Below, piece after piece: positions 4,534 to 25,199 of a stretch of 64,000 bases of DNA (the first letter of the stretch is position 1; each line of letters begins with the position of its first letter). The notes beneath the pieces are model-generated. The model was not told the DNA's origin and made no database searches. It saw only the letters and a list, made by a program, of their open reading frames with translations. The DNA is from a virus: the IMG/VR virus record IMGVR_UViG_3300045740_000163, positions 22,391 to 86,390 of that record; one strand, 5' to 3'. The translations under genes were made by a program, and so were the position numbers.

Positions 4534-5439
4534 CTAGCGACCACCGCGAAGGTAATTACCGGGTGCCGAATGGCCTCCGCGAACATTCTTTTGGAAGATT
4601 TGATTCCCAATCCGTACATCAGCTCGCTGAAGAGCCGAAGCATCTACACCAGTTCCGCGCCGCCTTGCAATCTCCTCAGCCACGGCTTGCCTATTGATAG
4701 GCATACCCATGCGCAGAGCTAATGCGGGGTTCGCAGAAATATCATAATTGGACGTTACCGTCTCAGATCCAGCCTTACTCAGGGGATCGAAATTGGGATT
4801 GCGCTGAGTCTGGAACGCTGTAGCCCACTCGTTATAGCTACTAGGTGTCAACTTACCGGAGAAAGTAAATTGAGGATTGTTGATGGTGCCGCCACCAGTT
4901 ACATATTCAGGCATCATGCTGCCTGTAACACCACCGGCGGTTGTAGTTTGCCCAAACTGTTCAGGATTAGGATGAGGCATAAGGTAGCGCTTCATACCCA
5001 TTGAAGCGATACGTGCAGTATTTCTAGCCATCGCTTCGGACACTTCGTGCATCTTGCCTTTAAACGATCCATAGCCACGATTATCCTGCACATAAAATTT
5101 GCCATCACGCTGCTCGATTTTTGGCATAAAGCCCGCGTAGGACCCGTAAGGATCCAAGATAGTCTTGCCTTCAGCGGTTTTACCGAAGCCAATATCTCCT
5201 AAATCACCGACCATCGAACCGCCTGCAGGAGCACTGGCGGCATTTGTGCCAGCTTCCATCATGGTGGTGGGGTTAATCTCCTGGAATCCAGTAGAAGTTC
5301 CAGTAGATGCGGTATCAGGATTCGTTTTAACGGGAGTAAAACCCTGTAGATACTGGCTTAAAAAATCCTGTGGGCTGCTTGAAGAGCCAAAACCCCTACG
5401 AGAACGCTTGAAACCTGCAGAAGAAGGAGTTTGGGCCAC
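4534..5439 (-). CDS. Probable virion structural protein
   Basis: A 301-residue protein with a Ser-rich N-terminus (GFGSSSSPQDFLSQYL), a disordered Thr/Gly/Ala region, a compact middle (IEQRDGKFYVQDNRGYG, about residues 108-124), and an Arg/Gly-rich C-terminus ending NYLRGGR. It sits among minus-strand virion-type genes and is followed by its own terminator. Function cannot be named from sequence. Confidence 0.6.
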   Translation of the reverse strand: MAQTPSSAGFKRSRRGFGSSSSPQDFLSQYLQGFTPVKTNPDTASTGTSTGFQEINPTTMMEAGTNAASAPAGGSMVGDLGDIGFGKTAEGKTILDPYGSYAGFMPKIEQRDGKFYVQDNRGYGSFKGKMHEVSEAMARNTARIASMGMKRYLMPHPNPEQFGQTTTAGGVTGSMMPEYVTGGGTINNPQFTFSGKLTPSSYNEWATAFQTQRNPNFDPLSKAGSETVTSNYDISANPALALRMGMPINRQAVAEEIARRRGTGVDASALQRADVRIGNQIFQKNVRGGHSAPGNYLRGGR

Positions 5440-5487
5440 AACACTTAAGTATTTAACACCATTATAAACAACAATTTAATTGGTAAA

Positions 5488-8956: not shown

Positions 8957-9029
8957 TGGGGGTCGCGAGGATCGAACTCGCCTGAAATCGATTATGAGTC
9001 GACCGCTTTCACCAGATAGCTAGACCCCC
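8957..9029 (-). tRNA. tRNA with CAT anticodon (Met elongator or Ile2 type)
   Basis: The 73-base minus-strand gene has a perfect acceptor (GGGGGTC/GACCCCC), anticodon stem GTCGA/TCGAT with loop CTCATAA, and T arm GCGAG-TTCGATC-CTCGC. The anticodon is CAT. The perfect first acceptor pair argues against an initiator tRNA; elongator Met or a lysidine-modified Ile2 cannot be separated by eye. The CCA end is not encoded. A TATAGT box on the same strand lies just upstream (9039-9044). Confidence 0.9.
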
Positions 9030-9038
9030 GTGCCTGCC

Positions 9039-9044
9039 ACTATA
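9039..9044 (-). promoter_or_regulatory. Candidate -10 box of the tRNA
   Basis: On the minus strand TATAGTGG occurs about ten bases before the tRNA's first base, with a weak -35 (CTGACC) about 18 bases further upstream. The TATAGTG form is shared with the promoters at 10322 and 14147. Confidence 0.45.
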
Positions 9045-9070
9045 CTGACAATGGACCTTTTGGGGTCAGT
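9044..9070. repeat. Palindromic element ACTGAC...GTCAGT, copy 1
   Basis: ACTGAC (9044-9049) and GTCAGT (9065-9070) can pair. Fourteen bases at its right side (TTTGGGGTCAGTTT, 9059-9072) recur exactly at 10169-10182, where the same palindrome is present. The two copies enclose about 1.1 kb without convincing genes. Confidence 0.6.
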
Positions 9071-9176
9071 TTACTCCGCCGAAAACCATAGGTATCTCGC
9101 CCGCGTCGTCGCGCGAGCTCTATATATAAAAAAAAGGCCGAATTGCGGGCAGATTGCGCCCACTATGTAACACAAA

Positions 9177-9300
9177 CCTCGCGCGTGCGCGTATGCGCGT
9201 GCGTGTGTGCGTGTATGCGCGTGCGTGTACGCGTGTGCATGATGCGCGCGTGGGCGGGGGTGCGCGTTTTTCTACGCGCGTGTGCGCATGGCGTGCGCGC
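9177..9300. repeat. Alternating purine-pyrimidine GC-rich tract
   Basis: About 120 bases are dominated by GCGCGTGCGTGT-type alternation. Such tracts favour left-handed Z-DNA under negative supercoiling. The frames across it encode only His/Arg/Thr low-complexity strings, so it is not coding. It could be an opening or topology element, an origin component, or the edge of the structured RNA candidate that follows. Confidence 0.7.
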
Positions 9301-9550
9301 TTCCTCTCCCTGCTGACTGAGCTTACCGAGCTCACCTAGTGTGCCAATCTGCAATCCGGTTGCAAGGGGTTGACCTAGTGCGCCGTGGTGTGATCTCATT
9401 AAGGGGTCGAAGGGCGAGAGCCCGATCGGCAGAACCTGGACAACCTGCAGCCCACGCGTCGCCACCCGGTACGATCCCGGCGGTTGATCAGCCAAGCCCT
9501 GCGAACCTACGCGTTCCCGCTTGTGCCGATCGCCAAACCGTCACTCCATC

Positions 9551-9562
9551 GTTCCGACAGGC
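9551..9562 (+). repeat. GTTCCGACAGGC repeat, copy 1
   Basis: The same twelve bases recur at 9713-9724 in the noncoding region and at 14131-14142, where they fill the spacer of a strong promoter. Three exact copies of a 12-mer suggest a bound protein or a shared RNA structure. Confidence 0.5.
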
Positions 9563-9712
9563 TCCGCACCATGCTGTAGGATTCCAGCAACGGGCCGAGA
9601 GGCTCGACGACATAGCAGCTCAGCCATCGCTCAGCTGGCCGCAGACGGAACGTCGCCATAAGTAGGCTCCCCAGGGAGCCGAGACGGCGAGACGACGGAC
9701 TGTAGGCTAGGT

Positions 9713-9724
9713 GTTCCGACAGGC
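9713..9724 (+). repeat. GTTCCGACAGGC repeat, copy 2
   Basis: Second copy within the structured region. Copies 1 and 2 extend alike to GTTCCGACAGGCT, followed by CCGCAC or GCGGAC. Confidence 0.5.
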
Positions 9725-10090
9725 TGCGGACTGATCCCCCTGAGGCTAGTAGCCATAGGTGCGGCCGCCGAACCATTCAAGGCCCGCATCAGCACTAGAA
9801 TCTCCCGCCCACCCGGCGATGGCCAGCGCGTCACGCTAAGGGAAGCTCGGAGCTAGTGTCTCGCCCGGAAGGCCCTTAGTCCGCTGCTGTAGGTTTTTAA
9901 CTTCCTACAGTTGTGCTGAGTTACAATCGCCATACTCTGACGACAGGCAAGCCGGGTGGGACCCGTGAGAAGTCCAGGGATCGAGCGTGGTGAGAAGTAA
10001 CGCAATACCTAAACACTTTTTATCCGCAGGGATGTTGTGTCCGAGTACCTGCATCAAACACAGGTACGCTGGCACAAGCCGCAGGAAGTT

Positions 10091-10108
10091 ATCTTCTACG
10101 GTCATCAT
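10091..10108 (+). repeat. 18-base repeat shared with the 14.2-kb leader, copy 1
   Basis: ATCTTCTACGGTCATCAT occurs here and, identically, at 14176-14193 in the leader of the gene at 14202. With the GTTCCGACAGGC copies it shows that the noncoding region and the 14.1-kb promoter region share ancestry or a binding factor. Confidence 0.6.
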
Positions 10109-10156
10109 CCCGGCGGGGCACAATTTAATAGCTTTTGTGCGCATTATGTGCGCCAT

Positions 10157-10181
10157 AACTGACTTTAATTTGGGGTCAGTT
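10157..10181. repeat. Palindromic element AACTGAC...GTCAGTT, copy 2
   Basis: AACTGAC (10157-10163) pairs with GTCAGTT (10175-10181), a seven-pair inverted repeat around an AT-rich centre. It is the right-hand partner of the element at 9044-9070. Confidence 0.6.
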
Positions 10182-10321
10182 TCCCGGATTCACTCTTTAG
10201 TGGGGCCTGGTATTACCTACCGGGCTCTACTTAGGGGTGTGTTTGTTTGTATCCGTGATCACGTTTGATCATGGTGCAAAGTTTCGTTTCTGCTTTTATG
10301 TCTGACGCTCTCCCTGTGCGC

Positions 10322-10327
10322 TATAGT
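10322..10327 (+). promoter_or_regulatory. -10 box of the small-gene cluster promoter
   Basis: TATAGT followed by GCACACTGAGGGCCTCT closely matches the region after the -10 box at 14147 (TATAGTGTGAGGGCCTCT). A -35 hexamer is weak (TCTGAC or similar). The downstream unit starts at 10385 and the small-gene cluster follows. Confidence 0.6.
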
Positions 10328-10384
10328 GCACACTGAGGGCCTCTACCCTCACCTTTTACTACAGTTTCACAGGTGTATTTAAAC

Positions 10385-10690
10385 ATGACTGAACTGACAA
10401 TCAAGACCAACAATCAGCCACCCCCGCTGTTCAATCCCTGCGAACTTTCGCAGTCTCAGCGTGCCAAACTGCGCCGCCAATTTGATTGGATGAGCGACGA
10501 TGAGTTTGACCATAATTGTTCATTCTTTCTCTATCGCGGTTGGTATTACAACCTCTCTGACTTCCTGACTAACACTAACCCTGACGGTATGTTTAAGGGT
10601 TGGCACGGTATCGCTAGCGATTCCTATTTCACAGGAACGCTAGTCAAACTGTGCGGCAACGATGTTATCGTCGGCCGTTATTCTTCCTGA
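10385..10690 (+). CDS. Small hypothetical protein, first gene of the small-gene cluster
   Basis: Read from the ATG at 10385 (MTELTIKTNNQ) this is about 101 residues. The core has SQSQRAKLRRQFDWMSDDEFD and an aromatic beta-rich half (FFLYRGWYYNLSDFL, GWHGIASDSYF). I recognise no family. A leader of about 57 bases separates it from the TATAGT promoter. No purine-rich Shine-Dalgarno sequence is visible. Confidence 0.6.
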   Translation: MTELTIKTNNQPPPLFNPCELSQSQRAKLRRQFDWMSDDEFDHNCSFFLYRGWYYNLSDFLTNTNPDGMFKGWHGIASDSYFTGTLVKLCGNDVIVGRYSS

Positions 10691-25174: not shown

Positions 25175-25199
25175 GGGCGTCGAAAGGCGCCCTTTTTTT
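25175..25199 (+). terminator. Intrinsic terminator directly before polA
   Basis: GGGCGTC-GAAA-GGCGCCC followed by seven T lies five bases before the polA start. It ends the upstream transcript; because no promoter is visible between it and polA, it may act as an attenuator set to let part of the transcription through. Confidence 0.85.

Follow-up and report, generated by a model that had tools for sequence, protein, structure and literature searches.

What occupies the gene-free stretch of about 1 kb that lies between divergent gene blocks of an 86-kb phage? We read this stretch directly over positions 9044–10182 of a 64-kb portion, called the window below, of the source record (86,390 bases). 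The phage carries genes for a family A DNA polymerase, a primase, an exonuclease, a terminase and head proteins, and the largest records of its related group measure 82–87 kb. A megablast search with 24 kb of the window found no match among named phages. Among isolates, Synechococcus phage S-EIV1 comes closest, as judged by the portal-like protein alone (42% identity), which makes a cyanobacterial host likely. The large genes between 10.4 and 38.4 kb, DNA polymerase and primase among them, all run rightward, and the first gene of this operon (10385–10690, plus strand) encodes a protein of 101 residues with unassigned function and no PHROG match. Homologues of this protein occur at 16 distinct viral loci, and many of those with sufficient upstream sequence have the element at the same place. 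We found the element in close relatives (L003, L005, L008 and L134) as well as in distant ones (L009, L011, L012, L013, L050, L082, L091, L111, L138 and L061). No reading frame is common to the relatives over the region, in agreement with an earlier note on this DNA that saw no credible gene there, and a coding gene was rejected on this ground. The element is real, gene-free and conserved.

The earlier note had also taken two matching palindromes as the borders of the element. Both palindromes are present, and the exact 14-mer TTTGGGGTCAGTTT occurs at 9059 and 10169 and nowhere else in the window, but neither copy marks a border. The left palindrome lies immediately upstream of the minus-strand tRNA-Met gene (8957–9029, identified with Rfam), and its exact 14-mer is missing from that site in L003, L096 and L134. 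The right palindrome is an internal stem (AACTGAC..GTCAGTT, 10157–10182, plus strand), which is maintained in L134 through compensatory changes and whose motif is missing in the more distant L009, L012 and L013. The conserved unit instead runs from a motif at 9095–9137 to the gene start at 10385. The G+C content of the gene-free stretch is about 61%, compared with about 48% around it. A tract described earlier as alternating GC is indeed present at 9178–9300, with 87% alternating purine-pyrimidine steps and a perfect run of 62 nt (9180–9241), yet it is not pure GC, the alternation being made of GC, GT and AT. The tract lies upstream of the inferred transcript and is lineage-specific, being swapped for other sequence in L003 and L005.

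The motif that opens the conserved unit (TCTCGCC..CGTCGTCG..TATATATAAAAAAAAGG, 9095–9137, plus strand) likewise falls outside the inferred RNA. It is present as a single copy in the window, is common to L003, L005, L008, L009, L012, L013, L018, L021, L023 and others, and has a similar counterpart preceding the S-EIV1 early operon; it is possibly a second promoter or part of an origin. A role as a repeated phage-specific promoter was rejected, since the stretches searched contain this AT motif a single time and a search of nine related records for a single-subunit RNA polymerase, which detects the enzyme in the controls S-CBP4 and S-TIP37, found none. Downstream of it, reading by eye, we identified a putative early promoter at 9370–9399 (plus strand), in which TTGACC is separated by 18 nt from a weak −10-like hexamer, TCTCAT. 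Most relatives, also read by eye, have TTGAC at the same place with the same 18-nt spacing to a −10-like hexamer (TACCTT, GATCTT, CATACT or GATGAT), and in most members TTGAC lies about 60 nt upstream of the boxA described below. A generic promoter scan found no promoter in the window. The transcript likely starts near 9400–9406, as judged from the sequence.

From this point to position 10384 on the plus strand, fold z-scores and compensatory changes point to a structured untranslated leader RNA. We folded, in 16 elements, the 750 bases around a recurrent core hairpin (TGTCC..ACCTG-loop-CAGGTACGCTGG, 10036–10078, plus strand). The operon strand gave z-scores of −3.3 to −11 relative to shuffles, compared with −2.2 to +0.04 for the operon strand of six coding controls, and was the more stable strand in 15 of the 16 elements, in one of them by only 0.3 kcal/mol. 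The many hairpins that had been noted earlier are borne out by plus-strand z-scores of −4.8 to −7.3, against about −2.5 for the minus strand. Among close relatives, paired changes maintain stems that include the second palindrome and the hairpin GTGGGGCCTGGTA..TACCGGGCTCTAC (10199–10232, plus strand), while elsewhere in the leader whole hairpin modules are exchanged. The proposal of a large structured phage RNA is thus supported by folding in 16 relatives and by covariation, the homologous phage regions having yielded compensatory pairs. We also observed by eye a hairpin domain, GTCGTCACAAGACGGAAC..GCGAGCGATCCC..GTTGCAACCCGACC, with apparent compensatory changes, that is common to distant leaders (L011 at 1500–1605, L012 at 5395–5485, L079 at about 600–690 after its hairpin, and L250).

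The leader ends in a candidate switch (10308–10350, plus strand), in which a stem at 10308–10339 and a stem at 10335–10350 have the segment GAGGG in common. In an alignment of 20 sequences, 93.8% of the cells of the hairpin before the first gene are paired, 7 of its 12 pairs show changes on both sides, and its covariation score is 0.508, compared with 0.168 (sd 0.024) for shuffles and at most 0.10 for slid partners. The second terminal stem is retained in all 20 sequences, with one compensatory change; the two stems are mutually exclusive. In many relatives the terminal hairpin is conserved some 35 nt ahead of the first start codon, and its identity as a conserved RNA structure is well supported.

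Size, complex folding and a nearby tRNA gene recall the large ornate phage RNAs GOLLD and ROOL, and the earlier note had named GOLLD, ROOL and OLE as models to search against. However, a comparison of the region with 4227 Rfam families up to E = 10 returned only the tRNA and low-complexity or chance matches, and a search of all 86,390 bases of the record for GOLLD (RF02032) gave nothing at E≤10. GOLLD, ROOL, OLE and the other Rfam families were rejected for lack of a covariance-model match. The element differs from GOLLD and ROOL further in that it appears to be an mRNA leader, and it is better regarded as a leader acting in cis on the early operon, with a boxA of the rRNA type, than as a free-standing RNA.

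The boxA assignment relies on a study of picocyanobacterial rRNA spacers, in which the antitermination boxA appears in the form of a primer complementary to GAACCTTGACAACTGCATAG (PMC9769826); we used this sequence, rather than one read from host rRNA operons, as the host reference. The boxA of another cyanobacterial genus is GAACCTTGAAAA (PMC8461337). In the window, GAACCTGGACAA (9432–9443, plus strand) matches the host rRNA boxA core at 11 of 12 positions, the match being confined to this 12-base core and not extending to the following CTGCATAG. Such a core match is not rare by itself (0.36 expected in 64 kb, one found). Under a relaxed motif, 18 of the 19 elements readable far enough upstream (window included) have between one and three boxA copies, whose position is conserved, and the 19th, L005, has the variant GAATCTGGACAA; this relaxed motif occurs seven times in the 128 kb of the two window strands. 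In several relatives boxA is closer to the host sequence, for example GAACCTTGACAACAGAATAG and GAACCTTGACAATCTAAATAG. A ratio of counts puts the density of boxA-like 20-mers close to the core hairpin at about 29 times that in the remainder of these loci. These element counts are not independent, because the elements are related and were partly collected with one hairpin pattern. Directly before boxA, in a boxB-like position, predicted folds place a hairpin (9405–9431, plus strand), which recurs in the folds of most members with 60-nt z-scores near 0 to −2 that are not significant case by case. BoxA keeps its place while neighboring hairpin modules are exchanged. Two or three copies spaced about 150–190 nt apart were seen in L009 (4740–6000), L012, L032, L050, L061 and L138; in L009, CTAGGTG just before the second boxA could pair with the first (CACCTAG), a possible switch.

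The core hairpin extends these observations to other phages. Its consensus of about 40 nt, TGTCCAG.GTAYCTG-n9-CAGGTACGCTGGACA, was found in at least 119 viral-contig stretches (L036, L045, L074, L079, L099, L135 and others), in settings that include leaders, positions upstream of T7-like early promoters and positions between convergent genes. A host repeat was rejected as its source, since one cellular assembly matched among 84,980 species. One match falls at the record start of S-CBP4, a T7-like Synechococcus phage, between late genes and the early region, and prompted us to read the early leaders of other isolates. BoxA precedes the first genes in all five T7-like cyanophage leaders so read (S-SBP1, S-TIP37, S-CBP3, S-CBP4 and S-RIP2), matching the host boxA at 19 of 20 positions in S-SBP1 and 18 of 20 in S-TIP37. 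A scan for near-identical boxA sequences yielded at least 120 viral stretches, not every one of which need be cyanophage; many have one large hairpin ahead of boxA, and the host boxA is matched at all 20 bases in L232 and L238. Viral contigs unlike T7-like cyanophages (L180–L293) also contain an rRNA-type boxA, and its use by phages may be broader. BoxA was not seen in the first 2.5–3 kb of the records of Syn5, P-SSP7, P60 and S-CBP42. It is absent anywhere in S-EIV1, which retains only the similar 5' motif; hence, boxA is not essential to the lineage, S-EIV1 being the nearest isolate. Some T7-like cyanophage leaders end, just before the first gene, in a tRNA T-arm-like sequence, CAGGGTTCGAGTCCCTG (L173 at 600–650, L175 and L036).

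We consider it probable that the rightward early/replication operon of about 28 kb has this element as its 5' leader, and that the element carries an rRNA-type antitermination signal that hijacks host Nus factors. Also in favor of this reading are the rightward course of the large genes and the failure to find a single-subunit RNA polymerase in the nine related records; the weak −10 of the window, its boxA match limited to the core and the absence of boxA from S-EIV1 count against it. Host RNA polymerase would start near 9400 and make a hairpin and a boxA resembling the host rRNA antiterminator. The polymerase would then take up the host Nus complex, with NusB-S10 on boxA together with NusA and NusG, and in this modified state would pass the stable RNA structure of about 1 kb and transcribe the operon with no termination on the way. 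Ahead of the first gene, the last hairpin would form one or the other of its exclusive stems, perhaps tuning read-through or translation. Transcription of the element and its start site, Nus binding, antitermination and what the end hairpin does are all inferences from sequence. A need for antitermination is plausible because the operon holds at least one strong terminator-like site, at 25175, although the operon as a whole shows no enrichment of such sites. This site (25175–25192) is an intrinsic-terminator-like hairpin followed by seven T, placed immediately ahead of the DNA polymerase gene or where that gene begins.

The proposed signal resembles that of bacterial rRNA operons (boxB-boxA-boxC, with NusA, NusB, S10 and NusG) in its boxA sequence, which reaches 19 of 20 positions in isolates and identity in some contigs, in a predicted hairpin that precedes boxA in most folds, and in its place ahead of a long structured untranslated RNA. 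It differs in that it stands before protein-coding genes, in the early leaders of phages, and in the frequent presence of two or three boxA copies. An early phage operon with a boxA-type signal also recalls the nut sites of phage lambda (boxA-boxB, N protein); however, the predicted hairpin here comes before boxA, whereas lambda boxB follows boxA and is bound by the N protein.

Other explanations account for parts of this evidence. A put-like leader, in which the folded RNA would bind host RNA polymerase directly and suppress both pausing and termination, as in phage HK022, with boxA secondary, appears unlikely to us, although the strong and conserved folding where an early operon begins favors it. 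Elements of the put type are far smaller than this leader, which in addition has a boxA, and that boxA is retained in place while the surrounding hairpin modules are exchanged; the resemblance noted is that of a structured RNA heading early phage transcripts. The put element of HK022, which works on early genes purely as RNA (PMC9378689), is a precedent. We similarly doubt that the element represents a new class of large, free-standing structural RNA, similar in function to GOLLD or ROOL and processed out of the operon or ending before it. Its size, ornate folding, modular hairpins and adjoining tRNA gene would suit such an RNA, but it has no Rfam match, the only terminator-like site seen is a weak one, and the conserved terminal hairpin stands close before the first start codon in many relatives.

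A DNA element, serving as a replication origin or packaging site between divergent operons, seems to us very improbable for the locus as a whole. The location between divergent gene blocks, the single-copy AT motif and the alternating tract would fit this reading, as would the coincidence of the recurrent hairpin with the S-CBP4 record start, though that record is circular. Against it, the operon strand folds better in 15 of 16 elements (in one, by the small margin given above), the alternating tract is replaced in relatives, and the paired changes include G-U pairs, which point to RNA. For the 5' 300 bases, upstream of 9370, with the motif at 9095–9137 and the alternating tract, an origin-type element is possible.

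Returning to the antitermination leader, we found no description of boxA or antitermination in cyanophages in the literature searched, which covered few subscription journals, so that novelty is provisional. We tentatively propose, at somewhat less than even confidence, that several distinct cyanophage groups head the early operon with a mimic of the rRNA operon, in which a host-type and often repeated boxA comes together with hairpins, an extended modular RNA structure and a switch at the end. The early mRNA would then be handled by host polymerase as if it were rRNA, with no phage antiterminator protein, and the leaders would constitute a new family of large modular cis-acting RNAs. Direct testing is possible because isolates with named hosts (S-SBP1, S-TIP37, S-CBP3, S-CBP4 and S-RIP2) have the motif, which also provides a sequence handle for finding such leader RNAs. 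The analysis suggests that a large ornate RNA in a phage need not be a free RNA but can be a cis leader, and it offers a concrete answer to how host polymerase gets through the long early operons of cyanophages, namely that these phages may borrow the antitermination signal of rRNA.
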